Assembly (NCBI GenBank): GCA_963920705.1
Contig: OY987234.1
Coordinates: forward strand, 1,302,001 to 1,366,000
DNA length: 64,000 nucleotides
Source of the DNA: Odiellus spinosus
Taxonomy: Eukaryota; Arthropoda; Arachnida; Opiliones; Phalangiidae
Reading direction: 5' to 3'
Program-made: the position numbers and the translations under genes
Notes under the pieces: model-generated
Told to the model about the DNA's origin: nothing
The model's database searches: none
The model's input: the letters and a program-made list of their open reading frames with translations, nothing else
Shown: positions 10,965 to 46,307 of the stretch, piece by piece
How positions within the stretch are numbered: the stretch's first letter is position 1
Layout of the letters: each line of letters begins with the position of its first letter

Positions 10965-11000
10965 ATGTGGATCTACACTTGGGAAATATGTGGATCTACA
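10965..11000 (+). repeat. Doubled AAATATG monomer (one-monomer gain)
   Basis: Two consecutive monomers end in GGGAAATATG here, whereas related modules have one. This makes the 10,277-11,036 module 33 monomers instead of 32. It is a single-monomer duplication, the smallest copy-number change seen in the array. Confidence 0.8.
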
Positions 11001-11035
11001 CTTGGGAAATTTGTGGATCTACACTTGGGAAATTT

Positions 11036-16279: not shown

Positions 16280-16440
16280 GATTATCTGCACTTGGAAAAT
16301 TTGTGGATGTACACTTGGGAAATTTGTGGATCTGCACTTGGGAACATTGTGGATCTGCACTTGGGAAAATTGTGGATCTGCACTTGGGAAATTTGTGGAT
16401 CTACACTTGGGAAATTTGTGGATCTACACTTGGGAAATTT
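16280..16440 (+). repeat. Shortest A module, 7 monomers (161 bp)
   Basis: Two GATTATCTG starts lie only 161 bp apart. The first module is truncated after GATGT, AACATT, AAAATT, CTGCAC and plain monomers, and the second (16,441 onward) restarts the full order. The nearby copy at 17,384 has the same truncated head without the immediate restart. This looks like an internal deletion plus duplication. Confidence 0.8.
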
Positions 16441-17469
16441 GATTATCTGCACTTGGAAAATTTGTGGATGTACACTTGGGAAATTTGTGGATCTGCACTT
16501 GGGAACATTGTGGATCTGCACTTGGGAAAATTGTGGATCTGCACTTGGCAAATTTGTGGATCTGCACTTGGGAAATTTGTGGATCTACACTTGGGAAATT
16601 TGTGGATCTACATTTGGGAAATTTGTGGATCTACACTTGGGAAATTTGTGGATCTGCACTTGGGAAATTTGTTGATCTACATTTGGGAAATTTGTGGATC
16701 TACACTTGGGAAATTTGTGGATCTACACTTGGGAAATTTGTGGATCTACACTTGGGAAATTTGTGGATCTACACTTGGGATATTTGTGGATCTACACTTG
16801 GGAAATTTGAGGGTCTACACTTGGGAAATTTGTGGATCTACACTTGGGAAATTTGTGGATCTACACTTGGGAAATTTGTGGATCTACACTTGGGAAATTT
16901 GTGGATCTACACTTGGGAAATTTGTGGATCTGCACTTGGGAAATTTGTGGATCTACACTTGGGAAATTTGTGGATCTACATTTGGGAAATTTGTGGATCT
17001 ACACTTGGGAAATTTGTGGATCTACACTTGGGAAATTTATGGATCTACACTTGGGAAATATGTGGATCTACACTTGGGAAATTTGTGGATCTACATTTGG
17101 GAAATTTGTGGATCTACACTTGGGAAATTTGTGGATCTACACTTGGGAAATTTGGTGATCTACACTTGGGAAATTTGGTGATCTACACTTGGGAAATTTG
17201 TGGATCTACATTTGGGAAATTTGTGGATCTACACTTGGGAAATTTGTGGATCTACACTTGGGAAATTTGTGGATCTACATTTGGGAAATTTGTGGATCTA
17301 CACTTGGGAAATTTGTGGATCTACAATTGGGAAATATGTGGATCTACACTTGGGAAATTTGTGGATCTACACTTGGGAAATTTGATTATCTGCACTTGGA
17401 AAATTTGTGGATGTACACTTGGGAAATTTGTGGATCTGCACTTGGGAACATTGTGGATCTGCACTTGGG

Positions 17470-20165
17470 AAAATTGTGGATCTGCACTTGGGAAATTTGT
17501 GGATCTACACTTGGGAAATTTGTGGATCTACATTTGGGAAATTTGTGGATCTACACTTGGGAAATTTGTGGATCTACACTTGGGAAATTTGTGGGTCTAC
17601 ACTTGGGAAATTTGTGGATCTACACTTGGGAAATTTGTGGATCTACACTTGGGAAATTTGGTGATCTACACTTGGGAAATTTGGTGATCTACACTAGAGA
17701 AATTTGTGGATCTACATTTGGGAAATTTGTGGATCTACACTTGGGAAATTTGTGGATCTACACTTGGGAAATTTGTGGATCTACATTTGGAAAATTTGTG
17801 GATCTACACTTGGGAAATTTGTGGATCTACACTTGGGAAATATGTGGATCTACACTTGGGAAATTTGTGGATCTACACTTGGGAAATTTGATTATCTGCA
17901 CTTGGAAAATTTGTGGATGTACACTTGGGAAATTTGTTCATCTACACTTGGGAAATTTGTGGATCTGCACTTGGGAAATTTGTGGATCTGCACTTGGAAA
18001 ATTTGTGGATCTGCACTTGGAAAATTTGTGGATCTACACTTGGGAAATTTGTGGATCTACATTTGGGAAATTTGTGGATCTACACTTGGGAAATTTGTGG
18101 ATCTACACTTGGGAAATTTGTGGATCTACACTTGGGAAATTTGTGGATCTATACTAGGGAAATTTGTGGGTCTACACTTGGGAAATTTGTGGGTCTACAC
18201 TTGGGAAATTTGTGGGTCTACACTTGGGAAATTTGTGGATCTACACTTGGGAAATTTGTGGATCTACACTTGGGAAATTTGGTGATCTACACTTGGGAAA
18301 TTTGGTGATCTACACTTGGGAAATTTGTGGATCTACATTTGGGAAATTTGTGGATCTACACTTGGGAAATTTGTGGATCTACACTTGGGAAATTTGTGGA
18401 TCTACATTTGGGAAATTTGTGAATCTACACTTGGGAAATTTATGGATCTACACTTGGGAAATATGTGGATCTACACTTGGGAAATTTGTGGATCTACATT
18501 TGGGAAATTTGTGGATCTACACTTGGGAAATTTGTGGATCTATACTTGGGAAATTTGGTGATCTACACTTGGGAAATTTGGTGATCTACACTTGGGAAAT
18601 TTGTGGATCTACATTTGGGAAATTTGTGGATCTACACTTGGGAAATTTGTGGATCTACACTTGGGAAATTTGTGGATCTACATTTGGGAAATTTGTGGAT
18701 CTACACTTGGGAAATTTGTGGATCTACACTTGGGAAATATGTTGATCTACACTTGGGAAATTTGTGGATCTACACTTGGGAAATTTGATTATCTGCACTT
18801 GGAAAATTTGTGGATGTACACTTGGGAAATTTGTGGATCTGCACTTGGGAACATTGTGGATCTGCACTTGGGAAAATTGTGGATCTGCACTTGGCAAATT
18901 TGTGGATCTGCACTTGGGAAATTTGTGGATCTACACTTGGGAAATTTGTGGATCTACATTTGGGAAATTTGTGGATCTACACTTGGGAAATTTGTGGATC
19001 TGCACTTGGGAAATTTGTTGATCTACATTTGGGAAATTTGTGGATCTACACTTGGGAAATTTGTGGATCTACACTTGGGAAATTTGTGGATCTGCGCTTG
19101 GGAAATTTGTGGATCTGCACTTGGAAAATTTGTGGATCTACACTTGGGAAATTTGTGGATCTACACTTGGGAAATTTGTGGGTCTACACTTGGGAAATTT
19201 GTGGATCTATACTTGGGATATTTGTGGATCTACACTTGGGAAATTTGAGGGTCTACACTTGGGAAATTTGTGGATCTACACTTGGGAAATTTGTGGATCT
19301 ACACTTGGGAAATTTGTGGATCTACACTTGGGAAATTTGTGGATCTGCACTTGGGAAATTTGTGGATCTACACTTGGGAAATTTGTGGATCTACACTTGG
19401 GAAATTTATGGATCTACACTTGGGAAATATGTGGATCTACACTTGGGAAATTTGTGGATCTACATTTGGGAAATTTGTGGATCTACATTTGGGAAATTTG
19501 TGGATCTACACTTGGGAAATTTGTGGATCTACACTTGGGAAATTTGTGGATCTACATTTGGGAAATTTGTGGATCTACACTTGGGAAATTTGTGGATCTA
19601 CACTTGGGAAATATGTGGATCTACACTTGGGAAATTTGTGGATCTACACTTGGGAAATTTGATTATCTGCACTTGGAAAATTTGTGGATGTACACTTGGG
19701 AAATTTGTGGATCTGCACTTGGGAACATTGTGGATCTGCACTTGGGAAAATTGTGGATCTGCACTTGGCAAATTTGTGGATCTGCACTTGGGAAATTTGT
19801 GGATCTACACTTGGGAAATTTGTGGATCTACATTTGGGAAATTTGTGGATCTACACTTGGGAAATTTGTGGATCTGCACTTGGGCAATTTGTTGATCTAC
19901 ATTTGGGAAATTTGTGGATCTACACTTGGGAAATTTGTGGATCTACACTTGGGAAATTTGTGGATCGGCGCTTGGGAAATTTGTGGATCTGCACTTGGAA
20001 AATTTGTGGATCTACACTTGGGAAATTTGTGGATCTACATTTGGGAAATTTGTGGATCTACACTTGGGAAATTTGTGGATCTACACTTGGGAAATTTGTG
20101 GATCTACACTTGGGAAATTTGTGGGTCTACACTTGGGAAATTTGTGGATCTACACTTGGGATATT
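17470..20165 (+). repeat. 2.7-kb block, copy also at 23,034-25,729
   Basis: This block matches 23,034-25,729 at a constant offset of 5,564 (242 monomers minus 2 bp). Module starts 17,890, 18,787 and 19,661 correspond to 23,454, 24,351 and 25,225. Four difference sites were found: TATACTTGGG near 18,541 against CACACTT, GGGCAATTTG near 19,885 against GGGAAATTTG, and two paired GG changes in the partner. Shared private markers include CACTAGAGAAA, TTGTGAATC, ATATGTTGATC and GATCGGCGC. Confidence 0.85.
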
Positions 20166-23100
20166 TGTGGATCTACACTTGGGAAATTTGAGGGTCTACA
20201 CTTGGGAAATTTGTGGATCTACACTTGGGAAATTTGTGGATCTACACTTGGGAAATTTGTGGATCTACACTTGGGAAAATTGTGGATCTGCACTTGGGAA
20301 ATTTGTGGATCTACACTTGGGAAATTTGTGGATCTACATTTGGGAAATTTGTGGATCTACACTTGGGAAATTTGTGGATCTACACTTGGGAAATTTGTGG
20401 GTCTACACTTGGGAAATTTGTGGATCTACACTTGGGAAATTTGTGGATCTACACTTGGGAAATTTGGTGATCTACACTTGGGAAATTTGGTGATCTACAC
20501 TAGAGAAATTTGTGGATCTACATTTGGGAAATTTGTGGATCTACACTTGGGAAATTTGTGGATCTACACTTGGGAAATTTGTGGATCTACATTTGGAAAA
20601 TTTGTGGATCTACACTTGGGAAATTTGTGGATCTACACTTGGGAAATATGTGGATCTACACTTGGGAAATTTGTGGATCTACACTTGGGAAATTTGATTA
20701 TCTGCACTTGGAAAATTTGTGGATGTACACTTGGGAAATTTGTTCATCTACACTTGGGAAATTTGTGGATCTGCACTTGGGAAATTTGTGGATCTGCACT
20801 TGGAAAATTTGTGGATCTGCACTTGGAAAATTTGTGGATCTACATTTGGGAAATTTGTGGATCTACATTTGGGAAATTTGTGGATCTACACTTGGGAAAT
20901 TTGTGGATCTACACTTGGGAAATTTGTGGATCTACACTTGGGAAATATGTGAATCTATACTTGGGAAATTGGTGGATATACTTGGGAAATTGGTGGATCT
21001 ATACTTGGAAAATTTGTGGATCTGCACTTGGAAAATTTGTGGATCTACATTTGGGAAATTTGTGGATCTACATTTGGGAAATTTGTGGATCTACATTTGG
21101 GAAATTTGTGGATCTACACTTGGGAAATTTGTGGATCTACACTTGGGAAATATGTGGATCTACACTTGGGAAATTTGTGGATCTACACTTGGGAAATTTG
21201 ATTATCTGCACTTGGAAAATTTGTGGATGTACACTTGGGAAATTTGTGGATCTGCACTTGGGAACATTGTGGATCTGCACTTGGGAAAATTGTGGATCTG
21301 CACTTGGCAAATTTGTGGATCTGCACTTGGGAAATTTGTGGATCTACACTTGGGAAATTTGTGGATCTACATTTGGGAAATTTGTGGATCTACACTTGGG
21401 AAATTTGTGGATCTGCACTTGGGCAATTTGTTGATCTACATTTGGGAAATTTGTGGATCTACACTTGGGAAATTTGTGGATCTACACTTGGGAAATTTGT
21501 GGATCGGCGCTTGGGAAATTTGTGGATCTGCACTTGGAAAATTTGTGGATCTACACTTGGGAAATTTGTGGATCTACATTTGGGAAATTTGTGGATCTAC
21601 ACTTGGGAAATTTGTGGATCTACACTTGGGAAATTTGTGGATCTACACTTGGGAAATTTGTGGGTCTACACTTGGGAAATTTGTGGATCTACACTTGGGA
21701 TATTTGTGGATCTACACTTGGGAAATTTGAGGGTCTACACTTGGGAAATTTGTGGATCTACACTTGGGAAATTTGTGGATCTACACTTGGGAAATTTGTG
21801 GATCTACACTTGGGAAAATTGTGGATCTGCACTTGGGAAATTTGTGGATCTACACTTGGGAAATTTGTGGATCTACATTTGGGAAATTTGTGGATCTACA
21901 CTTGGGAAATTTGTGGATCTACACTTGGGAAATTTGTGGGTCTACACTTGGGAAATTTGTGGATCTACACTTGGGAAATTTGTGGATCTACACTTGGGAA
22001 ATTTGGTGATCTACACTTGGGAAATTTGGTGATCTACACTAGAGAAATTTGTGGATCTACATTTGGGAAATTTGTGGATCTACACTTGGGAAATTTGTGG
22101 ATCTACACTTGGGAAATTTGTGGATCTACATTTGGAAAATTTGTGGATCTACACTTGGGAAATTTGTGGATCTACACTTGGGAAATATGTGGATCTACAC
22201 TTGGGAAATTTGTGGATCTACACTTGGGAAATTTGTGGATCTACACTTGGGAAAATTGTGGATCTGCACTTGGGAAATTTGTGGATCTACACTTGGGAAA
22301 TTTGTGGATCTACATTTGGGAAATTTGTGGATCTACACTTGGGAAATTTGTGGATCTACACTTGGGAAATATGTGGATCTACACTTGGGAAATTTGTGGA
22401 TCTACACTTGGGAAATTTGATTATCTGCACTTGGAAAATTTGTGGATGTACACTTGGGAAATTTGTGGATCTGCACTTGGGAACATTGTGGATCTGCACT
22501 TGGGAAAATTGTGGATCTGCACTTGGCAAATTTGTGGATCTGCACTTGGGAAATTTGTGGATCTACACTTGGGAAATTTGTGGATCTACATTTGGGAAAT
22601 TTGTGGATCTACACTTGGGAAATTTGTGGATCTGCACTTGGGCAATTTGTTGATCTACATTTGGGAAATTTGTGGATCTACACTTGGGAAATTTGTGGAT
22701 CTACACTTGGGAAATTTGTGGATCGGCGCTTGGGAAATTTGTGGATCTGCACTTGGAAAATTTGTGGATCTACACTTGGGAAATTTGTGGATCTACATTT
22801 GGGAAATTTGTGGATCTACACTTGGGAAATTTGTGGATCTACACTTGGGAAATTTGTGGATCTACACTTGGGAAATTTGTGGGTCTACACTTGGGAAATT
22901 TGTGGATCTACACTTGGGATATTTGTGGATCTACACTTGGGAAATTTGAGGGTCTACACTTGGGAAATTTGTGGATCTACACTTGGGAAATTTGTGGATC
23001 TACACTTGGGAAATTTGTGGATCTACACTTGGGAAAATTGTGGATCTGCACTTGGGAAATTTGTGGATCTACACTTGGGAAATTTGTGGATCTACATTTG

Positions 23101-23453
23101 GGAAATTTGTGGATCTACACTTGGGAAATTTGTGGATCTACACTTGGGAAATTTGTGGGTCTACACTTGGGAAATTTGTGGATCTACACTTGGGAAATTT
23201 GTGGATCTACACTTGGGAAATTTGGTGATCTACACTTGGGAAATTTGGTGATCTACACTAGAGAAATTTGTGGATCTACATTTGGGAAATTTGTGGATCT
23301 ACACTTGGGAAATTTGTGGATCTACACTTGGGAAATTTGTGGATCTACATTTGGAAAATTTGTGGATCTACACTTGGGAAATTTGTGGATCTACACTTGG
23401 GAAATATGTGGATCTACACTTGGGAAATTTGTGGATCTACACTTGGGAAATTT
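19661..23453 (+). repeat. Three successive related modules with GGGCAATTTG and GATCGGCGC
   Basis: Modules starting at 19,661, 21,200 and 22,419 share two rare markers, GGGCAATTTG (near 19,883, 21,422 and 22,641) and GATCGGCGC (near 19,965, 21,504 and 22,723). The offsets are 1,539 (67 monomers minus 2 bp) and 1,219 (53 monomers). GATCGGCGC also occurs near 25,529 without GGGCAATTTG, so GATCGGCGC arose first and GGGCAATTTG later. CACTAGAGAAA (near 17,695, 20,504, 22,039 and 23,257) marks the same lineage. Confidence 0.8.
20945..21015 (+). repeat. Degenerate patch with a 2-bp deletion
   Basis: Four consecutive monomers here are unusually divergent: AAATATGTGAATC, CTATACTTGGG, AAATTGGTGG twice, and a 21-bp monomer in which GGATCTACACTT is reduced to GGATATACTT. 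This is the only 2-bp length change in the window and accounts for the 504-bp (22 monomers minus 2) interval between 20,696 and 21,200. The flanks are ordinary monomers. Confidence 0.9.
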
Positions 23454-25729
23454 GATTATCTGCACTTGGAAAATTTGTGGATGTACACTTGGGAAATTTG
23501 TTCATCTACACTTGGGAAATTTGTGGATCTGCACTTGGGAAATTTGTGGATCTGCACTTGGAAAATTTGTGGATCTGCACTTGGAAAATTTGTGGATCTA
23601 CACTTGGGAAATTTGTGGATCTACATTTGGGAAATTTGTGGATCTACACTTGGGAAATTTGTGGATCTACACTTGGGAAATTTGTGGATCTACACTTGGG
23701 AAATTTGTGGATCTATACTAGGGAAATTTGTGGGTCTACACTTGGGAAATTTGTGGGTCTACACTTGGGAAATTTGTGGGTCTACACTTGGGAAATTTGT
23801 GGATCTACACTTGGGAAATTTGTGGATCTACACTTGGGAAATTTGGTGATCTACACTTGGGAAATTTGGTGATCTACACTTGGGAAATTTGTGGATCTAC
23901 ATTTGGGAAATTTGTGGATCTACACTTGGGAAATTTGTGGATCTACACTTGGGAAATTTGTGGATCTACATTTGGGAAATTTGTGAATCTACACTTGGGA
24001 AATTTATGGATCTACACTTGGGAAATATGTGGATCTACACTTGGGAAATTTGTGGATCTACATTTGGGAAATTTGTGGATCTACACTTGGGAAATTTGTG
24101 GATCTACACTTGGGAAATTTGGTGATCTACACTTGGGAAATTTGGTGATCTACACTTGGGAAATTTGTGGATCTACATTTGGGAAATTTGTGGATCTACA
24201 CTTGGGAAATTTGTGGATCTACACTTGGGAAATTTGTGGATCTACATTTGGGAAATTTGTGGATCTACACTTGGGAAATTTGTGGATCTACACTTGGGAA
24301 ATATGTTGATCTACACTTGGGAAATTTGTGGATCTACACTTGGGAAATTTGATTATCTGCACTTGGAAAATTTGTGGATGTACACTTGGGAAATTTGTGG
24401 ATCTGCACTTGGGAACATTGTGGATCTGCACTTGGGAAAATTGTGGATCTGCACTTGGCAAATTTGTGGATCTGCACTTGGGAAATTTGTGGATCTACAC
24501 TTGGGAAATTTGTGGATCTACATTTGGGAAATTTGTGGATCTACACTTGGGAAATTTGTGGATCTGCACTTGGGAAATTTGTTGATCTACATTTGGGAAA
24601 TTTGTGGATCTACACTTGGGAAATTTGTGGATCTACACTTGGGAAATTTGTGGATCTGCGCTTGGGAAATTTGTGGATCTGCACTTGGAAAATTTGTGGA
24701 TCTACACTTGGGAAATTTGTGGATCTACACTTGGGAAATTTGTGGGTCTACACTTGGGAAATTTGTGGATCTATACTTGGGATATTTGTGGATCTACACT
24801 TGTTAAATTTGAGGGTCTACACTTGGGAAATTTGTGGATCTACACTTGGGAAATTTGTGGATCTACACTTGGGAAATTTGTGGATCTACACTTGGGAAAT
24901 TTGTGGATCTGCACTTGGGAAATTTGTGGATCTACACTTGGGAAATTTGTGGATCTACACTTGGGAAATTTATGGATCTACACTTGGGAAATATGTGGAT
25001 CTACACTTGGGAAATTTGTGGATCTACATTTGGGAAATTTGTGGATCTACATTTGGGAAATTTGTGGATCTACACTTGGGAAATTTGTGGATCTACACTT
25101 GGGAAATTTGTGGATCTACATTTGGGAAATTTGTGGATCTACACTTCTGAAATTTGTGGATCTACACTTGGGAAATATGTGGATCTACACTTGGGAAATT
25201 TGTGGATCTACACTTGGGAAATTTGATTATCTGCACTTGGAAAATTTGTGGATGTACACTTGGGAAATTTGTGGATCTGCACTTGGGAACATTGTGGATC
25301 TGCACTTGGGAAAATTGTGGATCTGCACTTGGCAAATTTGTGGATCTGCACTTGGGAAATTTGTGGATCTACACTTGGGAAATTTGTGGATCTACATTTG
25401 GGAAATTTGTGGATCTACACTTGGGAAATTTGTGGATCTGCACTTGGGAAATTTGTTGATCTACATTTGGGAAATTTGTGGATCTACACTTGGGAAATTT
25501 GTGGATCTACACTTGGGAAATTTGTGGATCGGCGCTTGGGAAATTTGTGGATCTGCACTTGGAAAATTTGTGGATCTACACTTGGGAAATTTGTGGATCT
25601 ACATTTGGGAAATTTGTGGATCTACACTTGGGAAATTTGTGGATCTACACTTGGGAAATTTGTGGATCTACACTTGGGAAATTTGTGGGTCTACACTTGG
25701 GAAATTTGTGGATCTACACTTGGGATATT
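23034..25729 (+). repeat. 2.7-kb block, copy also at 17,470-20,165
   Basis: This is the partner of the block at 17,470. Its own differences are CTTGTTAAATTTG near 24,802 and CTTCTGAAATTTG near 25,146, each replacing the GG of CTTGGG with another dinucleotide. The block ends near 25,729, where a GGATATTTG monomer is doubled. Confidence 0.85.
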
Positions 25730-28640
25730 TGTGGATCTACACTTGGGATATTTGTGGATCTACACTTGGGAAATTTGAGGGTCTACACTTGGGAAATTTG
25801 TGGATCTACACTTGGGAAATTTGTGGATCTACACTTGGGAAATTTGTGGATCTACACTTGGGAAATTTGTGGATCTGCACTTGGGAAATTTGTGGATCTA
25901 CACTTGGGAAATTTGTGGATCTACATTTGGGAAATTTGTGGATCTACACTTGGGAAATTTGTGGATCTACACTTGGGAAATTTGTGGATCTGCACTTGGG
26001 AAATTTGTGGATCTGCACTTGGAAAATTTGTGGATCTGCACTTGGAAAATTTGTGGATCTACACTTGGGAAATTTGTGGATCTACATTTGGGAAATTTGT
26101 GGATCTACACTTGGGAAATTTGTGGATCTACACTTGGGAAATTTGTGGATCTACACTTGGGAAATTTGTGGATCTACACTTGGGAAATTTGTGGATCTAC
26201 ACTTGGGAAAATTGTGGGTCTACACTTGGGAAATTTGTGGATCTACACTTGGGAAATTTGTGGATCTACACTTGGGAAATTTGGTGATCTACACTTGGGA
26301 AATTTGGTGATCTACACTTGGGAAATTTGGTGATCTACACTAGGGAAATTTGTGGATCTACATTTGGGAAATTTGTGGATCTACACTTGGGAAATTTGTG
26401 GATCTACACTTGGGAAATTTGTGGATCTACACTTGGGAAATTTGTGGATCTACACTTGGGAAATTTATGGGTCTACACTTGGGAAATTTGTGGATCTACA
26501 CTTGGGAAATTTGTGGATCTACACTTGGGAAATTTGGTGATCTACACTTGGGAAATTTGGTGATCTACACTTGGGAAATTTGTGGATCTACATTTGGGAA
26601 ATTTGTGGATCTACACTTGGGAAATTTGTGGATCTACACTTGGGAAATTTGTGGATCTACACTTGGGAAATTTGTGGATCTACACTTGGGAAATTTGGTG
26701 ATCTACACTAGGGAAATTTGTGGATCTACATTTGGGAAATTTGTGGATCTACACTTGGGAAATTTGTGGATCTACACTTGGGAAATTTGTGGATCTACAT
26801 TTGGGAAATTTGTGGATCTACACTTGGGAAATTTGTGGATCTACACTTGGGAAATATGTGGATCTACACTTGGGAAATTTGTGGATCTACACTTGGGAAA
26901 TTTGATTATCTGCACTTGGAAAATTTGTGGATGTACACTTGGGAAATTTGTGGATCTACACTTGGGAAATTTGTGGATCTGCACTTGGGAAATTTGTGGA
27001 TCTGCACTTGGAAAATTTGTGGATCTGCACTTGGAAAATTTGTGGATCTACACTTGGGAAATATGTGGATCTAAACTTGGGAAATTTGGTGATCTACACT
27101 TGGGAAATTTGGTGATCTACACTTGGGAAATTTGTGGATCTACACTTGGGAAATTTGTGGATCTACATTTGGGAAATTTGTGGATCTACACTTGGGAAAT
27201 TTGTGGATCTACATTTGGGAAATTTGTGGATCTACACTTGGGAAATTTGTGGGTCTACACTTGGGAAATTTGTGGATCTACACTTGGGAAATTTGTGGAT
27301 CTAAACTTGGGAAATTTGGTGATCTACACTTGGGAAATTTGGTGATCTACACTTGGGAAATTTGTGGATCTACATTTGGGAAATTTGTGGATCTACACTT
27401 GGGAAATTTGTGGATCTACACTTGGGAAATTTGTGGATCTACATTTGGGAAATTTGTGGATCTACACTTGGGATATTTGTGGATCTACACTTGGGAAATA
27501 TGTGGATCTACACTTGGGAAATTTGTGGATCTACACTTGGGAAATTTGATTATCTGCACTTGGAAAATTTGTGGATGTACACTTGGGAAATTTGTGGATC
27601 TGCACTTGGGAACTTTGTGGATCTGCACTTGGGAAAATTGTGGATCTGCACTTGGCAAATTTGTGGATCTGCACTTGGGAAATTTGTGGATCTACACTTG
27701 GGAAATTTGTGGATCTACATTTGGGAAATTTGTGGATCTACATTTGGGAAATTTGTGGATCTACACTTGGGAAATTTGTGGATCTGCACTTGGGAATTTT
27801 GTTGATCTACATTTGGGAAATTTGTGGATCTACACTTGGGAGATTTGTGGATCTACACTTGGGAAATTGGTGGATCTGCGCTTGGGAAATTTGTGGATCA
27901 GCACTTGGAAAATTTGTGGATCTACACTTGGGAAATTTGTGGATCTACATTTGGGAAATTTGTGGATCTACACTTGGGAAATTTGTGGATCTACACTTGG
28001 GAAATTTGTGGATCTACACTTGGGAAATTTATGGGTCTACACTTGGGAAATTTGTGGATCTACACTTGGGATATTTGTGGATCTACACTTGGGAAATTTG
28101 AGGGTCTACACTTGGGAAATTTGTGGATCTACACTTGGGAAATTTGTGGATCTTCACTTGGGAAATTTGTGGATCTACACTTGGGAAATTTGTGGATCTG
28201 CACTTGGGAAATTTGTGGATCTACACTTGGGAAATTTGTGGATCTACATTTGGGAAGTTTGTGGATCTACACTTGGGAAATTTGTGGATCTACACTTGGG
28301 AAATTTGTGTATCTGCACTTGGGAAATTTGTGGATCTGCACTTGGAAAATTTGTGGATCTGCACTTGGAAAATTTGTGGATCTACACTTGGGAAATTTGT
28401 GGATCTACATTTGGGAAATTTGTGGATCTACACTTGGGAAATTTGTGGATCTACACTTGGGAAATTTGTGGATCTACACTTTGGAAATTTGTGGATCTAC
28501 ACTTGGGAAATTTGTGGGTCTACACTTGGGAAATTTGTGGATCTACACTTGGGAAATTTGTGGATCTACACTTGGGAAATTTGGTGATCTACACTTGGGA
28601 AATTTGGTGATCTACACTTGGGAAATTTGGTGATCTACAT
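25730..28640 (+). repeat. Transition zone between domains A and B
   Basis: The 23-bp array continues, but the module order of domain A is lost: GATTATCTG starts occur only at 26904 and 27548. Private or rare variants cluster here: GATCTAAAC at about 27,071 and 27,301 (10 monomers apart), GGGAATTTTG near 27,790, GGAGATTTG near 27,840, AAATTGGTGG near 27,865, GATCAGCAC near 27,897, GATCTTCACTT near 28,150, GGGAAGTTTG near 28,253 and GTGTATCTGC near 28,308. Triple runs of TTGGTGATC occur near 26,280-26,335 and 28,580-28,635 instead of the usual pair. GGGAACTTTG, the domain B form of the domain A GGGAACATTG monomer, first appears near 27,608. Both limits are approximate. Confidence 0.6.
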
Positions 28641-34240: not shown

Positions 34241-35272
34241 GATCTACACTTGGGAAATTTGGTGATCTACACTTGGGAAATTTGTGGATCTACACTTGGG
34301 AAATTTGTGGATCTACACTTGGGAAATTTGTGGATCTACACTTGGGAAATTTGTGGATCTACATTTGGGAAATTTGTGGATCTACACTTGGGAAATTTGT
34401 GGATCTACACTTGGGAAATATGTGGATCTACACTTGGGAAATTTGTGGATCTACACTTGGGAAATTTGTGGATCTACACTTGGGAAATTTGATTATCTGC
34501 ACTTGGAAAATTTGTGGATGTACACTTGGGAAATTTGTGGATCTGCACTTGGGAACTTTGGTGATCTACACTTGGGAAATTTGTGGATCTGCACTTGGGA
34601 AAATTGTGGATCTCCACTTGGCAAATTTGTGGATCTGCACTTGGGAAATTTGTGGATCTACACTTGGGAAATTTGTGGATCTACATTTGGGAAATTTGTG
34701 GATCTACACTTGGGAAATTTGTGGATCTGCACTTGGGAAATTTGTTGATCTACATTTGGGAAATTTGTGGATCTACACTTGGGAAATTTGTGGATCTACA
34801 CTTGGGAAATTTGTGGATCTGCGCTTGGGAAATTTGTAGATCTGCACTTGGAAAATTTGTGGATCTACACTTGGGAAATTTGTGGATCTACATTTGGGAA
34901 ATTTGTGGATCTACACTTGGGAAATTTGTGGATCTACACTTGGGAAATTTGTGGATCTACACTTGGGAAATTTGTGGGTCTACACTTGGGAAAAATGTGG
35001 ATCTACACTTGGGAAATTTGTGGATCTACACTTGGGAAATTTGTGGATCTACACTTGGGAAATTTGCTGATCTACACTTGGGAAATTTGTGGATCTACAT
35101 TTGGGAAATTTGTGGATCTACACTTGGGAAATTTGTGGATCTACACTTGGGAAATTTGTGGATCAACATCTGGGAAATTTGTGGATCTACACTTGGGAAA
35201 TTTGTGGATCTACACTTGGGAAATTTGTGGATCTACACTTGGGAAATTTGTGGATCTACACTTGGGAAATTT

Positions 35273-37341
35273 GATTATCTGCACTTGAATAATTTGTGGA
35301 TGTGCACTTGGGAAATTTGTGGATCTGCACTTGGGAACTTTGTGGATCTGCACTTGGGAAAATTGTGGATCTGCACCTGGCAAATTTGTGGATCTGCACT
35401 TGGGAACTTTGTGGATCTACACTTGGGAAATTTGTGGATCTACATTACGGAAATTTTTGGATCTACACTTGGGAAATTTGTGGATCTGCACTTGGGAAAT
35501 TTGTGGATCTACATTTGGGAAATTTGTGGATCTACACTTGGGAAATTTGTGGATCTACACTTGGGAAATTTGTGGATCTACACTTGGGAAATTTGTGGAT
35601 CTGCACTTGGAAATTTGTGGATCTACACTAAGGAAATTTGTGGATCTACATTAGGGAAATTTGTGGATCTACACTTGGGAAATTTGTGGATATACACTTG
35701 GGAAATTTGTGGATCTGCACTTGGGAAATTTGTGGATCTGCACTTGGGAAATTTGTGGATCTGCACTTGGGAAATTTGTGGATCTACACTTGGGAAATTT
35801 GTGGATCTACACTTGGGAAATTTGTGGATCTACACTTGGGATATTTGTGGATCTACACTTGGGAAATTTGTGGATCTACACTTGGGAAATTTGTGGATCT
35901 ACACTTGGGAAATTTGTGGATCTACACTTGGGAAATTTGTGGATCTGCGCTTGGGAAATTTGTGGATCTGCACTTGGAAAATTTGTGGATCTACACTTGG
36001 GAAATTTGTGGATCTTCATTTGGGAAATTTGTGGATCTACACTTGGGAAATTTGTGGATCTACACTTGGGAAATTTGTGGATTTACACTTGGGAAATTTG
36101 TGGGTCTACACTTGGGAAATTTGTGGATCTACACTTGGAAAATTTGTGGATCTACACTTGGGAAATTTGTGGATCTTCATTTGGGAAATTTGTGGATCTA
36201 CACTTGGGAAATTTGTGGATCTACACTTGGGAAATTTGTGGATCTACACTTGGGAAATTTGTGGGTCTACACTTGGGAAATTTGTGGATCTACACTTGGG
36301 AAATTTGTGGATCTACACTTGGGAAATTTGTGGATCTACATTTGGGAAATTTGTGGATCTACACTTGGGAAATTTGTGGATCTACACTTGGGAAATTTGT
36401 GGATCTGCACTTGGGAAATTTGTGGATCTACACTTGGGAAATTTGTATATCTACATTTGGGAAATTTGTGGATCTACACTTGGGAAATTTGTGGATCTAC
36501 ACTTGGGAAATATGTGGATCTACACTTGGGAAATTTGTGGATCTACACTTGGGAAATTTGATTATCTGCACTTGGAAAATTTGTGGATGTACACTTGGGA
36601 AATTTGTGGATCTGCACTTGGGAACTTTGGTGATCTACACTTGGGAAATTTGTGGATCTGCACTTGGGAAAATTGTGGATCTCCACTTGGCAAATTTGTG
36701 GATCTGCACTTGGGAAATTTGTGGATCTACACTTGGGAAATTTGTGGATCTACATTTGGGAAATTTGTGGATCTACACTTTGGAAATTTGTTGATCTGCA
36801 CTTGGGAAATTTGTTGATCTACATTTGGGAAATTTGTGGATCTACACTTGGGAAATTTGTGGATCTACACTTGGGAAATTTGTGGATCTGCGCTTGGGAA
36901 ATTTGTAGATCTGCACTTGGAAAATTTGTGGATCTACACTTGGGAAATTTGTGGATCTACATTTGGGAAATTTGTGGATCTACACTTGGGAAATTTGTGG
37001 ATCTACACTTGGGAAATTTGTGGATCTACACTTGGGAAATTTGTGGGTCTACACTTGGGAAAAATGTGGATCTACACTTGGGAAATTTGTGGATCTACAC
37101 TTGGGAAATTTGTGGATCTACACTTGGGAAATTTGCTGATCTACACTTGGGAAATTTGTGGATTTACATTTGGGAAATTTGTGGATCTACACTTGGGAAA
37201 TTTGTGGATCTACACTTGGGAAATTTGTGGATCAACATTTGGGAAATTTGTGGATCTACACTTGGGAAATTTGTGGATCTACACTTGGGAAATTTGTGGA
37301 TCTACACTTGGGAAATTTGTGGATCTACACTTGGGAAATTT
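35273..37341 (+). repeat. B higher-order unit, 2,069 bp (90 monomers minus 1 bp)
   Basis: This is one of three units with identical length between AATAATTTG landmarks (35,273, 40,400 and 43,503). Its marker order includes GGGAACTTTG, CACCTGGCAA, ACATTACGG, AAATTTTTGG, the 22-bp monomer, CACTAAGG, ACATTAGGG, GGATATACAC, GGATATTTG, CTGCGC, GATCTTCATT (twice), GGATTTACAC, GTATATC, an A-like GATTATC/GATGT pair (36,560), GGGAAAAATG, TTGCTGATC and GATCAACATT. It closes at TTATTATCTG (37,342). Confidence 0.8.
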
Positions 37342-37755
37342 TATTATCTGCACTTGAATAATTTGTGGATGTGCACTTGGGAAATTTGTGGATCTGCACT
37401 TGGGAACTTTGTGGATCTGCACTTGGGAAAATTGTGGATCTGCACCTGGCAAATTTGTGGATCTGCACTTGGGAACTTTGTGGATCTACACTTGGGAACT
37501 TTGTGGATCTGCACTTGGGAAATTTGTGGATCTACACTTGGGAAATTTTATTATCTGCACTTGAATAATTTGTGGATGTGCACTTGGGAAATTTGTGGAT
37601 CTGCACTTGGGAACTTTGTGGATCTGCACTTGGGAAAATTGTGGATCTGCACCTGGCAAATTTGTGGATCTGCACTTGGGAAATTTGTGGATCTGCACTT
37701 GGGAACTTTGTGGATCTGCACTTGGGAAAATTGTGGATCTGCACCTGGCAAATTT
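37342..37755 (+). repeat. Local 9-monomer (207 bp) duplication
   Basis: TTATTATCTG with AATAATTTG occurs at 37,342 and again at 37,549. Each copy is followed by GATGTGCAC, GGGAACTTTG, GGGAAAATTG and CACCTGGCAA. The equivalent region at 42,469 has a single copy, so this is a local gain. Confidence 0.8.
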
Positions 37756-38144
37756 GTGGATCTGCACTTGGGAACTTTGTGGATCTACACTTGGGAAATT
37801 TGTGGATCTACATTACGGAAATTTTTGGATCTACACTTGGGAAATTTGTGGATCTGCACTTGGGAAATTTGTGGATCTACATTTGGGAAATTTGTGGATC
37901 TACACTTGGGAAATTTGTGGATCTACACTTGGGAAATTTGTGGATCTACACTTGGGAAATTTGTGGATCTGCACTTGGAAATTTGTGGATCTACACTAAG
38001 GAACTTTGTGGATCTACACTTGGGAAATTTGTGGATCTACATTACGGAAATTTTTGGATCTACACTTGGGAAATTTGTGGATCTGCACTTGGGAAATTTG
38101 TGGATCTACATTTGGGAAATTTGTGGATCTACACTTGGGAAATT

Positions 38145-40270
38145 TGGTGATCTACACTTGGGAAATTTGTGGATCTACACTTGGGAAATTTGTGGATCTA
38201 CACTTGGGAAATTTGATTATCTGCACTTGGAAAATTTGTGGATGTACACTTGGGAAATTTGTGGATCTGCACTTGGGAACATTGTGGATCTGCACTTGGG
38301 AAAATTGTGGATCTGCACTTGGGAAAATTGTGGATCTGCACTTGGCAAATTTGTGGATCTGCACTTGGGAAATTTGTGGATCTACACTTGGGAAATTTGT
38401 GGATCTACATTTGGGAAATTTGTGGATCTACACTTGGGAAATTTGTGGATCTGCACTTGGGAAATTTGTTGATCTACATTTGGGAAATTTGTGGATCTAC
38501 ACTTGGGAAATTTGTGGATCTACACTTGGGAAATTTGTGGATCTGCGCTTGGGAAATTTGTGGATCTGCGCTTGGAAAATTTGTGGATCTACACTTGGGA
38601 AATTTGTGGATCTACATTTGGGAAATTTGTGGATCTACACTTGGGAAATTTGTGGATCTACACTTGGGAAATTTGTGGATCTACACTTGGGAAATTTGTG
38701 GATCTACACTTGGGAAATTTGTGGGTCTACACTTGGGATATTTGTGGATCTACACTTGGGAAATTTGAGGGTCTACACTTGGGAAATTTGAGGATCTACA
38801 CTTGGGAAATTTGTGGATCTACACTTGGGAAATTTGTGGATCTACACTTGGGAAATTTGTGGATCTACACTTGGGAAATTTGTGGATCTGCACTTGGGAA
38901 ATTTGTGGATCTACACTTGGGAAATTTGTGGATCTACATTTGGGAAATTTGTGGATCTACACTTGGGAAATTTGTGGATCTACACTTGGGAAATTTATGG
39001 ATCTACACTTGGGAAATATGTGGATCTACACTTGGGAAATTTGTGGATCTACATTTGGGAAATTTGTGGATCTACACTTGGGAAATTTGTGGATCTACAC
39101 TTGGGAAATTTGGTGATCTACACTTGGGAAATTTGGTGATCTACACTTGGGAAATTTGTGGATCTACATTTGGGAAATTTGTGGATCTACACTTGGGAAA
39201 TTTGTGGATCTACACTTGGGAAATTTGTGGATCTACATTTGGGAAATTTGTGGATCTACACTTGGGAAATTTGTGGATCTACACTTGGGAAATATGTGGA
39301 TCTACACTTGGGAAATTTGTGGATCTACACTTGGGAAATTTGATTATCTGCACTTGGAAAATTTGTGGATGTACACTTGGGAAATTTGTGGATCTGCACT
39401 TGGGAACATTGTGGATCTGCACTTGGGAAAATTGTGGATCTGCACTTGGCAAATTTGTGGATCTGCACTTGGGAAATTTGTGGATCTACACTTGGGAAAT
39501 TTGTGGATCTACATTTGGGAAATTTGTGGATCTACACTTGGGAAATTTGTGGATCTGCACTTGGGAAATTTGTTGATCTACATTTGGGAAATTTGTGGAT
39601 CTACACTTCGGAAATTTGTGGATCTACACTTGGGAAATTTGTGGATCTGCGCTTGGGAAATTTGTGGATCTGCACTTGGAAAATTTGTGGATCTACACTT
39701 GGGAAATTTGTGGATCTACATTTGGGAAATTTGTGGATCTACACTTGGGAAATTTGTGGATCTACACTTGGGAAATTTGTGGGTCTACACTTGGGAAATT
39801 TGTGGATCTACACTTGGGAAATTTGTGGATCTACACTTGGGAAATTTGGTGATCTACACTTGGGAAATTTGGTGATCTACACTAGGGAAATTTGTGGATC
39901 TACATTTGGGAAATTTGTGGATCTACACTTGGGAAATTTGTGGATCTACACTTGGGAAATTTGTGGATCTACATTTGGGAAATTTGTGGATCTACACTTG
40001 GGAAATTTGTGGATCTACACTTGGGAAATATGTGGATCTACACTTGGGAATTTTGTGGATCTACACTTGGGAAATTTGATTATCTGCACTTGGAAAATTT
40101 GTGGATGTACACTTGGGAAATTTGTGGATCTGCACTTGGGAAATTTGTGGATCTGCACTTGGAAAATTTGTGGATCTGCACTTGGAAAATTTGTGGATCT
40201 ACACTTGGGAAATTTGTGGATCTACATTTGGGAAATTTGTGGATCTACACTTGGGAAATTTGTGGATCTA
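38145..40270 (+). repeat. Island of A-type satellite inside domain B
   Basis: Immediately upstream (37,997-38,140) are B markers: CTAAGG, ACATTACGG and AAATTTTTGG. From about 38,145 the sequence switches to A markers: TTGGTGATC, GGGAACATTG near 38,273 and 39,408, doubled CTGCGC near 38,570, GGATATTTG, TTGAGGG and paired TTGGTGATC. B markers resume at GATCAACATCTGGG near 40,289. Both junctions keep the 23-bp register, as expected for exchange between misaligned copies of the same repeat. Confidence 0.8.
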
Positions 40271-40279
40271 CACTTGGGA
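39025..40279 (+). repeat. 1.25-kb block, partner of 1-1,255
   Basis: This is the second copy of the window's first 1.25 kb, located within domain B. It carries the same CTTCGG and GGGAATTTTG markers and the same 32-monomer module (39,342-40,077). It ends at the switch to B-type GATCAACATCTGGG near 40,289. Confidence 0.85.
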
Positions 40280-42795
40280 AATTTGTGGATCAACATCTGG
40301 GAAATTTGTGGATCTACACTTGGGAAATTTGTGGATCTACACTTGGGAAATTTGTGGATCTACACTTGGGAAATTTGTGGATCTACACTTGGGAAATTTG
40401 ATTATCTGCACTTGAATAATTTGTGGATGTGCACTTGGGAAATTTGTGGATCTGCACTTGGGAACTTTGTGGATCTGCACTTGGGAAAATTGTGGATCTG
40501 CACCTGGCAAATTTGTGGATCTGCACTTGGGAACTTTGTGGATCTACACTTGGGAAATTTGTGGATCTACATTACGGAAATTTTTGGATCTACACTTGGG
40601 AAATTTGTGGATCTGCACTTGGGAAATTTGTGGATCTACATTTGGGAAATTTGTGGATCTACACTTGGGAAATTTGTGGATCTACACTTGGGAAATTTGT
40701 GGATCTACACTTGGGAAATTTGTGGATCTGCACTTGGAAATTTGTGGATCTACACTAAGGAAATTTGTGGATCTACATTAGGGAAATTTGTGGATCTACA
40801 CTTGGGAAATTTGTGGATATACACTTGGGAAATTTGTGGATCTGCACTTGGGAAATTTGTGGATCTGCACTTGGGAAATTTGTGGATCTGCACTTGGGAA
40901 ATTTGTGGATCTACACTTGGGAAATTTGTGGATCTACACTTGGGAAATTTGTGGATCTACACTTGGGATATTTGTGGATCTACACTTGGGAAATTTGTGG
41001 ATCTACACTTGGGAAATTTGTGGATCTACACTTGGGAAATTTGTGGATCTACACTTGGGAAATTTGTGGATCTGCGCTTGGGAAATTTGTGGATCTGCAC
41101 TTGGAAAATTTGTGGATCTACACTTGGGAAATTTGTGGATCTTCATTTGGGAAATTTGTGGATCTACACTTGGGAAATTTGTGGATCTACACTTGGGAAA
41201 TTTGTGGATTTACACTTGGGAAATTTGTGGGTCTACACTTGGGAAATTTGTGGATCTACACTTGGAAAATTTGTGGATCTACACTTGGGAAATTTGTGGA
41301 TCTTCATTTGGGAAATTTGTGGATCTACACTTGGGAAATTTGTGGATCTACACTTGGGAAATTTGTGGATCTACACTTGGGAAATTTGTGGGTCTACACT
41401 TGGGAAATTTGTGGATCTACACTTGGGAAATTTGTGGATCTACACTTGGGAAATTTGTGGATCTACATTTGGGAAATTTGTGGATCTACACTTGGGAAAT
41501 TTGTGGATCTACACTTGGGAAATTTGTGGATCTGCACTTGGGAAATTTGTGGATCTACACTTGGGAAATTTGTATATCTACATTTGGGAAATTTGTGGAT
41601 CTACACTTGGGAAATTTGTGGATCTACACTTGGGAAATATGTGGATCTACACTTGGGAAATTTGTGGATCTACACTTGGGAAATTTGATTATCTGCACTT
41701 GGAAAATTTGTGGATGTACACTTGGGAAATTTGTGGATCTGCACTTGGGAACTTTGGTGATCTACACTTGGGAAATTTGTGGATCTGCACTTGGGAAAAT
41801 TGTGGATCTCCACTTGGCAAATTTGTGGATCTGCACTTGGGAAATTTGTGGATCTACACTTGGGAAATTTGTGGATCTACATTTGGGAAATTTGTGGATC
41901 TACACTTTGGAAATTTGTTGATCTGCACTTGGGAAATTTGTTGATCTACATTTGGGAAATTTGTGGATCTACACTTGGGAAATTTGTGGATCTACACTTG
42001 GGAAATTTGTGGATCTGCGCTTGGGAAATTTGTAGATCTGCACTTGGAAAATTTGTGGATCTACACTTGGGAAATTTGTGGATCTACATTTGGGAAATTT
42101 GTGGATCTACACTTGGGAAATTTGTGGATCTACACTTGGGAAATTTGTGGATCTACACTTGGGAAATTTGTGGGTCTACACTTGGGAAAAATGTGGATCT
42201 ACACTTGGGAAATTTGTGGATCTACACTTGGGAAATTTGTGGATCTACACTTGGGAAATTTGCTGATCTACACTTGGGAAATTTGTGGATTTACATTTGG
42301 GAAATTTGTGGATCTACACTTGGGAAATTTGTGGATCTACACTTGGGAAATTTGTGGATCAACATTTGGGAAATTTGTGGATCTACACTTGGGAAATTTG
42401 TGGATCTACACTTGGGAAATTTGTGGATCTACACTTGGGAAATTTGTGGATCTACACTTGGGAAATTTTATTATCTGCACTTGAATAATTTGTGGATGTG
42501 CACTTGGGAAATTTGTGGATCTGCACTTGGGAACTTTGTGGATCTGCACTTGGGAAAATTGTGGATCTGCACCTGGCAAATTTGTGGATCTGCACTTGGG
42601 AACTTTGTGGATCTACACTTGGGAAATTTGTGGATCTACATTACGGAAATTTTTGGATCTACACTTGGGAAATTTGTGGATCTGCACTTGGGAAATTTGT
42701 GGATCTACATTTGGGAAATTTGTGGATCTACACTTGGGAAATTTGTGGATCTACACTTGGGAAATTTGTGGATCTACACTTGGGAAATTTGTGGA
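39890..42795 (+). repeat. 2.9-kb tandem duplication, left copy
   Basis: This copy begins inside the A-type island, crosses the A/B junction near 40,285 and continues through a full B unit. The right copy at 42,993-45,920 follows almost directly, at offset 3,103 then 3,126. Because the A/B junction is present in both copies, this duplication is younger than the event that placed the island. Confidence 0.75.
40400..42468 (+). repeat. B higher-order unit, 2,069 bp
   Basis: This copy matches the unit at 35,273 at offset 5,127 (223 monomers minus 2 bp). The match begins about 190 bp upstream (near 40,212) and runs to about 42,625, for a 2.4-kb shared block with 35,085-37,498. Confidence 0.8.
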
Positions 42796-42964
42796 TCTGC
42801 ACTTGGAAATTTGTGGATCTACACTAAGGAACTTTGTGGATCTACACTTGGGAAATTTGTGGATCTACACTTGGGAAATTTGTGGGTCTACACTTGGGAA
42901 ATTTGTGGATCTACACTTGGGAAATTTGTGGATCTACATTTGGGAAATTTGTGGATCTACACTT

Positions 42965-43385
42965 GGGAAATTTGGTGATCTACACTAGGGAAATTTGTGG
43001 ATCTACATTTGGGAAATTTGTGGATCTACACTTGGGAAATTTGTGGATCTACACTTGGGAAATTTGTGGATCTACATTTGGGAAATTTGTGGATCTACAC
43101 TTGGGAAATTTGTGGATCTACACTTGGGAAATATGTGGATCTACACTTGGGAATTTTGTGGATCTACACTTGGGAAATTTGATTATCTGCACTTGGAAAA
43201 TTTGTGGATGTACACTTGGGAAATTTGTGGATCTGCACTTGGGAAATTTGTGGATCTGCACTTGGAAAATTTGTGGATCTGCACTTGGAAAATTTGTGGA
43301 TCTACACTTGGGAAATTTGTGGATCTACATTTGGGAAATTTGTGGATCTACACTTGGGAAATTTGTGGATCTACACTTGGGAAAT
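42965..43385 (+). repeat. Second A-type fragment inside domain B
   Basis: This short A-type stretch contains the CTAGGG monomer after TTGGTGATC near 42,980, AAATATG, GGGAATTTTG near 43,150, GATTATC, GATGT and two CTTGGAAAA monomers. It then switches to B-type GATCAACATCTGGG near 43,392. It matches 39,862-40,282 at offset 3,103 and is part of a tandem duplication of that region. The left junction is uncertain to about 100 bp. Confidence 0.7.
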
Positions 43386-45920
43386 TTGTGGATCAACATC
43401 TGGGAAATTTGTGGATCTACACTTGGGAAATTTGTGGATCTACACTTGGGAAATTTGTGGATCTACACTTGGGAAATTTGTGGATCTACACTTGGGAAAT
43501 TTGATTATCTGCACTTGAATAATTTGTGGATGTGCACTTGGGAAATTTGTGGATCTGCACTTGGGAACTTTGTGGATCTGCACTTGGGAAAATTGTGGAT
43601 CTGCACCTGGCAAATTTGTGGATCTGCACTTGGGAACTTTGTGGATCTACACTTGGGAAATTTGTGGATCTACATTACGGAAATTTTTGGATCTACACTT
43701 GGGAAATTTGTGGATCTGCACTTGGGAAATTTGTGGATCTACATTTGGGAAATTTGTGGATCTACACTTGGGAAATTTGTGGATCTACACTTGGGAAATT
43801 TGTGGATCTACACTTGGGAAATTTGTGGATCTGCACTTGGAAATTTGTGGATCTACACTAAGGAAATTTGTGGATCTACATTAGGGAAATTTGTGGATCT
43901 ACACTTGGGAAATTTGTGGATATACACTTGGGAAATTTGTGGATCTGCACTTGGGAAATTTGTGGATCTGCACTTGGGAAATTTGTGGATCTGCACTTGG
44001 GAAATTTGTGGATCTGCACTTGGGAAATTTGTGGATCTACACTTGGGAAATTTGTGGATCTACACTTGGGAAATTTGTGGATCTACACTTGGGATATTTG
44101 TGGATCTACACTTGGGAAATTTGTGGATCTACACTTGGGAAATTTGTGGATCTACACTTGGGAAATTTGTGGATCTACACTTGGGAAATTTGTGGATCTG
44201 CGCTTGGGAAATTTGTGGATCTGCACTTGGAAAATTTGTGGATCTACACTTGGGAAATTTGTGGATCTTCATTTGGGAAATTTGTGGATCTACACTTGGG
44301 AAATTTGTGGATCTACACTTGGGAAATTTGTGGATTTACACTTGGGAAATTTGTGGGTCTACACTTGGGAAATTTGTGGATCTACACTTGGAAAATTTGT
44401 GGATCTACACTTGGGAAATTTGTGGATCTTCATTTGGGAAATTTGTGGATCTACACTTGGGAAATTTGTGGATCTACACTTGGGAAATTTGTGGATCTAC
44501 ACTTGGGAAATTTGTGGGTCTACACTTGGGAAATTTGTGGATCTACACTTGGGAAATTTGTGGATCTACACTTGGGAAATTTGTGGATCTACATTTGGGA
44601 AATTTGTGGATCTACACTTGGGAAATTTGTGGATCTACACTTGGGAAATTTGTGGATCTGCACTTGGGAAATTTGTGGATCTACACTTGGGAAATTTGTA
44701 TATCTACATTTGGGAAATTTGTGGATCTACACTTGGGAAATTTGTGGATCTACACTTGGGAAATATGTGGATCTACACTTGGGAAATTTGTGGATCTACA
44801 CTTGGGAAATTTGATTATCTGCACTTGGAAAATTTGTGGATGTACACTTGGGAAATTTGTGGATCTGCACTTGGGAACTTTGGTGATCTACACTTGGGAA
44901 ATTTGTGGATCTGCACTTGGGAAAATTGTGGATCTCCACTTGGCAAATTTGTGGATCTGCACTTGGGAAATTTGTGGATCTACACTTGGGAAATTTGTGG
45001 ATCTACATTTGGGAAATTTGTGGATCTACACTTTGGAAATTTGTTGATCTGCACTTGGGAAATTTGTTGATCTACATTTGGGAAATTTGTGGATCTACAC
45101 TTGGGAAATTTGTGGATCTACACTTGGGAAATTTGTGGATCTGCGCTTGGGAAATTTGTAGATCTGCACTTGGAAAATTTGTGGATCTACACTTGGGAAA
45201 TTTGTGGATCTACATTTGGGAAATTTGTGGATCTACACTTGGGAAATTTGTGGATCTACACTTGGGAAATTTGTGGATCTACACTTGGGAAATTTGTGGG
45301 TCTACACTTGGGAAAAATGTGGATCTACACTTGGGAAATTTGTGGATCTACACTTGGGAAATTTGTGGATCTACACTTGGGAAATTTGCTGATCTACACT
45401 TGGGAAATTTGTGGATTTACATTTGGGAAATTTGTGGATCTACACTTGGGAAATTTGTGGATCTACACTTGGGAAATTTGTGGATCAACATTTGGGAAAT
45501 TTGTGGATCTACACTTGGGAAATTTGTGGATCTACACTTGGGAAATTTGTGGATCTACACTTGGGAAATTTTATTATCTGCACTTGAATAATTTGTGGAT
45601 GTGCACTTGGGAAATTTGTGGATCTGCACTTGGGAACTTTGTGGATCTGCACTTGGGAAAATTGTGGATCTGCACCTGGCAAATTTGTGGATCTGCACTT
45701 GGGAACTTTGTGGATCTACACTTGGGAAATTTGTGGATCTACATTACGGAAATTTTTGGATCTACACTTGGGAAATTTGTGGATCTGCACTTGGGAAATT
45801 TGTGGATCTACATTTGGGAAATTTGTGGATCTACACTTGGGAAATTTGTGGATCTACACTTGGGAAATTTGTGGATCTACACTTGGGAAATTTGTGGATC
45901 TACACTTGGGAAATTTGTGG
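42993..45920 (+). repeat. 2.9-kb tandem duplication, right copy
   Basis: This copy contains the duplicated A/B junction near 43,388, GGGAATTTTG near 43,150 and the B unit of 43,503. It has one more CTGCAC monomer near 44,010 than the left copy. The homology ends near 45,920, where it enters a second TTATTATCTG start (45,940). Confidence 0.75.
43503..45571 (+). repeat. B higher-order unit, 2,069 bp
   Basis: This is a third equal-length unit. It matches 40,400 at offset 3,103, then at 3,126 after gaining one CTGCAC monomer near 44,010 (four in a row against three). The total stays 2,069 because a monomer is missing near its right end, where one GATTATC start was re-joined. Confidence 0.65.
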
Positions 45921-46307
45921 ATCTACACTTGGGAAATTTTATTATCTGCACTTGAATAATTTGTGGATGTGCACTTGGGAAATTTGTGGATCTGCACTTG
46001 GGAACTTTGTGGATCTGCACTTGGGAAAATTGTGGATCTGCACCTGGCAAATTTGTGGATCTGCACTTGGGAACTTTGTGGATCTACACTTGGGAAATTT
46101 GTGGATCTACATTACGGAAATTTTTGGATCTACACTTGGGAAATTTGTGGATCTGCACTTGGGAAATTTGTGGATCTACATTTGGGAAATTTGTGGATCT
46201 ACACTTGGGAAATTTGTGGATCTACACTTGGGAAATTTGTGGATCTACACTTGGGAAATTTGTGGATCTGCACTTGGAAATTTGTGGATCTACACTAAGG
46301 AAATTTG
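45572..46307 (+). repeat. Local 16-monomer (368 bp) duplication
   Basis: TTATTATCTG with AATAATTTG occurs at 45,572 and 45,940, each with GGGAACTTTG, CACCTGGCAA, ACATTACGG and AAATTTTTGG in order. The first copy lacks the 22-bp monomer and CACTAAGG, which follow only the second copy (near 46,269). Confidence 0.8.

Follow-up and report, generated by a model that had tools for sequence, protein, structure and literature searches.

Within the 64-kb window of Odiellus spinosus DNA analyzed here (C12:1302001-1366000), which is all one array of a 23-bp satellite (unit TCTACACTTGGGAAATTTGTGGA, 2,783.7 copies, 92% matches by Tandem Repeats Finder), an island of A-type monomers lies embedded in a domain of B-type satellite at positions 38112-40284, and is a copy of C12:1301111-1303260 with one extra 23-bp monomer. 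Our reading, to which we assign a probability of about 0.83, is that the island arose through a recent, homology-guided and non-reciprocal copying of A sequence into B, by ectopic gene conversion or by replication template switching. The sequence analyzed comprised the window plus 100 kb of flank on each side (264 kb), and genome-wide counts refer to 443 Mb in 286 contigs. Positions are window coordinates, written with the prefix w where they lie to the left of the window or could be confused with those of the contig (w0 is C12:1302000, and negative values run leftward), and the island, the source, the joints, the partial island and the B copies described below are given on the + strand. For the comparison of exact matches the A domain was set at w-6500..26000 and the B domain at 34000-64000. 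To the right the array runs to about C12:1386.6 kb, followed by some 15 kb of other DNA and then by the array again; the side of this interruption that holds the window is called array 1, and the side beyond it, of which 64 kb were fetched, array 2.

The island (2,173 bp) and its source (2,150 bp) show no substitutions and are separated by a single 23-bp indel. An uninterrupted exact match of 1,644 bp joins w-383..1260 to 38641-40284 at offset 39024, and w-889..-384 corresponds to 38112-38617 with 0 mismatches at offset 39001. The match is truncated by the window edge, the source having its start 890 bp before window base 1; what can be seen inside the window at offset 39024 is the right part of the source block (1..1260). 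The initial annotation of this DNA, made from the window, had aligned bases 1-1,255 with 39,025-40,279 at that offset, and base-by-base comparison agreed with it (0/1,255 mismatches); the many differences between the blocks that would have spoken against a transfer were sought over the full 2,150 bp, and no substitution was found. Its island limits (38145..40289) were close to the exact ones, although the source proved larger than proposed and extends beyond the window. The extra monomer (38618..38640) is private to the island, which copy of the monomer run is the extra one being ambiguous, and within the 264 kb a 161-bp word spanning it has a single occurrence.

The source block sits in a 5,152-bp tandem duplication (C12:1295465 and C12:1300617; w-6535 and w-1383), and it differs from its tandem twin, 5,152 bp further left, at 1 position in 5,144 bp, where the island agrees with the source. 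When the island was scored with gaps against 3.45-kb tiles of array 1, minus the tiles overlapping the island itself, the source tile reached 2140.6 of a maximum of 2173, the twin 2137.6 and the next A block 2100.8. In an ungapped scan, a block near 4.5 kb gave the better match to the island's left part, a candidate that was rejected because the source gives 0 mismatches once a 23-bp indel is allowed. The donor may have been the source, its twin or an ancestor of both, and it was local, since the exact private words are found only on C12. Such words have to be long: CTTCGG and GGGAATTTTG, which had been put forward as markers confined to the two blocks and a younger partial copy of the island, occur at 582, 2238 and 39606 (CTTCGG being absent from the younger copy) and at 1022, 27792, 40046 and 43149, respectively. 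On the other hand, a 121-bp word around CTTCGG was found exactly three times in the genome (source twin, source and island), and a 131-bp word around GGGAATTTTG exactly four times (the same three places and the younger partial copy). Exact-pattern counts were used for these genome-wide claims because those of a similarity search are lower bounds: in a search of the genome with 1,255 bp of the island, in which the best 15 of 1,528 candidates were scored, the full-length matches listed were all on C12 and 92-96% identical, and the window's own two copies were not among them.

The island stands apart from its surroundings in monomer composition. The two domains, taken without the island and its partial copy, defined 4 A-type and 12 B-type diagnostic monomers; among the island's 94 monomers, six were A-diagnostic and none B-diagnostic, and every 1-kb bin of 29-64 kb held 0 A-diagnostic monomers except two at 38-40 kb. 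The two domains share the common 23-bp monomer and many of its variants. One 22-bp monomer type was found 0 times in A, 3 times in the transition between the domains and 17 times in B; this transition, at 26000-34000 of the window, mixes A-type and B-type satellite. With the island and the partial copy excluded, the longest exact match between A and B was 229 bp, and outside the island no A-B pair reached 400 bp of exact identity. Set against these short matches, 2,150 bp free of substitutions uphold the recent long-range transfer that had been suggested at the outset.

Exact matches of such length and reach are rare in the sequence examined. A scan restricted to direct repeats yielded 459 exact pairs of at least 400 bp in the 264 kb and 31 of at least 1,000 bp, 29 of the latter lying within 10 kb, one (1,003 bp) at 15 kb and one, the island and its source, at 39 kb; this is the only exact direct pair of at least 1 kb that is more than 20 kb apart. 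The island takes part in 23 of the 54 pairs of at least 400 bp that are more than 20 kb apart on the same side of the interruption. Similarly, 12 of 1,836 ungapped 1-kb windows had a 100% match more than 20 kb off, six of them in the source and six in the island. A scan of 500-bp windows for a far match (>8 kb) of at least 99.4% together with near matches of at most 97% returned, in array 1, the island (two runs) and two further runs at offsets of 11.1 and 16.9 kb, and, in the 64 kb of array 2, 11 runs at offsets of 8.8-20.1 kb, some being both ends of one pair. The island is not the sole case, but no other one in the sequence examined is as long or reaches as far. The other runs, of 500 to 800 bp each and looking as though copied from afar, are located at C12:1406501-1450800 in array 2 and at w61601-62100 and w-19899..-19400 in array 1. 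Three segments with poor local matches (20201-20800, 61901-62500 and w-26399..-25800) find their best matches in each other, at 41.7 or 88.4 kb and with 88-92% identity over 1-kb windows, and are possibly old long-range relatives.

Both ends of the island fall within stretches shared by donor and recipient. At the left joint (38112..38146), 35 bp are identical in source, island and B references: source and island mismatch at 38111, and identity between island and B reference ends at 38146 in 8/8 references, these being the ones tested out of 18 other places with the B motif. At the right joint (40196..40284), 89 bp are identical in source, island and the B copy on the left flank (copy a), the island equaling copy a from 40196 on and the source departing from the island at 40285. 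All monomers of the island and of both joints are 23 bp, so that the register was kept, as the initial annotation had it; blind joining would hold register twice with a chance of 1 in 529 by simple arithmetic. Among 20,000 random in-register pairs of A and B, the run of identity around the chosen base reached at least 35 bp in 30% and at least 89 bp in 1.6%, whereas the longest run among 20,000 out-of-register pairs was 21 bp, which argues that joining followed homology. The homology at the right joint is longer than usual for in-register pairs.

The flanks of the island place the transfer in a partial order of events. Copy a (35158..38111) forms the left flank, and its first 2,341 bp are repeated exactly to the right of the island, where copy b (40285..42953) begins at the right joint; up to 42869 copy b departs from copy a by one 299-bp indel and by no substitution, and its last 84 bp contain 6 mismatches. 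The order of B monomers on the two sides of the island is not consecutive. Copy b is followed by a partial island (42954..43387), a local tandem duplicate at offset 3103 of 39851-40284, the last 434 bp of the island, and then by a further B copy (copy c, 43388..46080), which aligns to copy b with 2,629 identical positions, 17 mismatches, three 23-bp gaps and one 1-bp gap. The initial annotation had recognized this younger copy at 42,995-43,385; the copy is real, but its limits are those given here and it matches the end of the island only. It belongs to an exact match of 1,062 bp, made up of 39851-40284 and 628 bp of B across the right joint. The exact right joint accordingly occurs at two places genome-wide (40120-40315 and 43223-43418), which have 434 bp in common to the left of the joint and then differ, and the exact left joint at one. 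As the second right joint lies within the offset-3103 tandem duplication, the transfer preceded that duplication.

The direction from A to B we infer from context. The source lies within continuous A sequence and the island between B flanks, and the extra monomer looks derived, given that the source, its twin and an A block near 7.1 kb all carry the shorter form; the blocks near 4.4 and 12.0 kb show other differences. Under this reading, a 2.15-kb A block would have been copied, with the donor retained, into B sequence 39 kb away on the same chromosome, its sister or its homologue. Copying would have proceeded by homology-dependent DNA synthesis, in which a broken or stalled B end paired with A in the 23-bp register over about 35 bp and, after 2.15 kb, re-entered B by way of about 89 bp of identical sequence. 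A local tandem duplication of the last 434 bp of the island and its right flank would have come afterwards, and the gain of one monomer in the island at some time.

As to the enzymatic route, two are consistent with the sequence. By ectopic gene conversion, B sequence would have been replaced, and the non-consecutive order of B monomers across the island agrees with such overwriting. By template switching similar to break-induced replication, synthesis would have passed from B to A and then to the start of the B unit at 35158, inserting the A block and duplicating about 3 kb of B in one event; this route predicts what is seen in copy b, which begins directly at the island's end and is identical to copy a over 2,341 bp. 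That a single replicative event with two template switches, from B to A (39 kb back) and on to B unit 35158, made both the island and the ~3-kb B duplication is a possible but rather doubtful version of events. If true, it would provide, for a 23-bp satellite and over tens of kb, a base-by-base trace of the template switching that has been proposed for centromeric satellites, and the shorter far-matched blocks (8.8-20.1 kb, in both arrays) would make template switching a recurrent mode of homogenization.

Several points weigh against the reading of a homology-guided copy, or against parts of it. How unique the donor is depends on the scale of comparison: relative to the source, the twin has just one further difference from the island, and, since the A sequence is homogeneous throughout its domain, 1-kb stretches of the island find 99.8-99.9% identity in other A blocks (near 7.6 and 12.5 kb), so that source and twin stand out only over the full length. 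The 35 bp of homology at the left joint are no more than in-register chance would give, and the stretch corresponding to that joint is arranged differently in copies b and c, indicating further local rearrangements there in copies a, b and c. The presence of copy b at the right joint would be equally expected if an older B duplication had been overwritten by conversion, and the state of B before the event is not visible, so that replacement and insertion are not separable. Finally, the evidence is confined to one assembled sequence.

Unequal exchange had been offered alongside a gene-conversion-like transfer as the origin of the island. The latter fits, but a single unequal crossover does not: a 39-kb misalignment would duplicate or delete the interval, a deletion leaves no island, and the lack of any trace of a 39-kb duplicate means that a non-reciprocal copy is needed. 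More elaborate is a two-step history in which sister chromatids, paired out of step by 39 kb, crossed over and duplicated the A-to-B stretch, a later exchange then deleting about 37 kb of the duplicate and leaving 2.15 kb of A behind. Unequal crossover is a standard model for satellites, as set out in PMC8997354, many local tandem duplications are visible in the 264 kb, and the in-register position of both joints would be accounted for; yet two large events with nested ends would be required, and no remnant of the first was found among the A-B matches outside the island, none of which reaches 400 bp. We regard this history as unlikely.

Less probable still is an artefact in which the assembly spliced A-domain sequence into the B domain. 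A misplaced read would give exact identity, the joints were judged from the assembly alone, and the left joint is present at one place only. Against this, the right joint is found in a second setting, alike for just 434 bp leftward, and an error would not normally reproduce a joint; the island also carries a monomer that is absent from the source, and its joints fall in register. An extrachromosomal circle excised from A and reinserted in B, a route proposed for satellites in PMC8122249, could have been released from the 5,152-bp direct duplication that holds the source; the island, however, is collinear with the source and not permuted, matches 2,150 bp and not 5,152 bp, and has two ends with different homologies, which makes this origin highly improbable. 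The retention of an ancient A sequence while A and B diverged around it has next to no likelihood: the monomer and the many variants common to A and B would agree with it, but not the absence of substitutions over 2,150 bp between domains whose exact matches elsewhere are at most 229 bp.

Analysis of the wider setting indicates that the array is unbroken throughout the left 100-kb flank, where every 2-kb bin has a 23-bp self-match of at least 0.865. Exact three-monomer matches numbered 8,023 in forward and 1,226 in reverse orientation genome-wide, and another array of the 23-bp satellite is found near the start of C11. The start of contig C12 (C12:1-600, L029) carries a diverged form of the satellite, of the TTTGTGAATCTATACTTGGAAAA type, and as the contig begins inside it, the satellite may extend to the chromosome end. 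The repeat was not found in the literature by a literal-string search, nor in topic listings of papers on satellites, centromeres and rearrangements, covering titles and the beginnings of abstracts.

The interruption to the right of the window, at about C12:1386600-1401500 (L021 from ~600 to 10000 and L022 from 1 to ~5600), consists of some 15 kb of non-satellite DNA with a single kind of repetitive open reading frame (ORF), which lies on the + strand in L021 and on the - strand in L022, an arrangement that suggests inverted ends. It also includes an ORF of 598 aa with no Pfam match (L022:1640-3436) and one with a BEN-domain match under the cut-off (L021:2027-2389; 19.3 vs 23.2 bits), and it is presumably akin to a large DNA transposon whose ends are made of sub-repeats. 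At the start of C11, next to the satellite, three ORFs at C11:436-1657 (L031) have a virus-like look, one with an Adeno_PX match under the cut-off (20.1 vs 25 bits) and two without a Pfam match; they may be adintovirus- or Maverick-like. The mitochondrial COX1 is free of stops when translated with the invertebrate mitochondrial code, which marks the host as an invertebrate. Elsewhere in the genome, 9 of the 13 COX1 matches listed were on C17, several with internal TAG stops, and probably represent mitochondrial DNA inserted in the nuclear genome.

Gene conversion, unequal crossover and circle reinsertion are the standard models for satellites presented in PMC8122249, and how they are homogenized remains a matter of debate in the accounts of PMC8997354 and PMC11034957, the candidate routes being local unequal crossover, gene conversion and replication template switching. 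The island resembles ectopic gene conversion within an array in that the donor is kept (source and twin on C12), the tract is identical with sharp in-register ends in a divergent recipient, mismatches resuming at 38111 and 40285, and donor and recipient share homology at both ends (35 and 89 bp); it differs in that insertion with a duplicated flank fits as well as replacement. For human alpha-satellite, break-induced replication with out-of-register re-initiation or template switching has been proposed (PMC8997354, PMC11034957), with RAD52 and PIF1 as factors of break-induced replication (PMC11034957), and the island is similar in having homology at both joints and a duplicated B unit beside the block. 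That model is centromeric, whereas the present case concerns a 23-bp satellite and a reach of 39 kb. The templated insertions of human complex rearrangements attributed to fork stalling and template switching or microhomology-mediated break-induced replication (FoSTeS/MMBIR, PMC5120786) likewise place a segment from elsewhere at a rearrangement joint, but the joints described in PMC5120786 are blunt, carry insertions or have 2 to 18 bp of microhomology, whereas 35 and 89 bp of identity are what a satellite provides. Unequal crossing over, in the Smith model as given in PMC8997354, explains the local tandem duplications, but a 2.15-kb island 39 kb away could not arise from it alone unless the interval were duplicated or deleted as well. 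The island is a well-resolved member of a known process and not a new kind of system: it illustrates with unusual clarity that satellite repeats can be copied over long distances, long reads from other individuals would allow it to be typed, and its known donor, its joints mapped within 35 and 89 bp and the later duplication that partly orders the events make it a clean test case for models of satellite homogenization.

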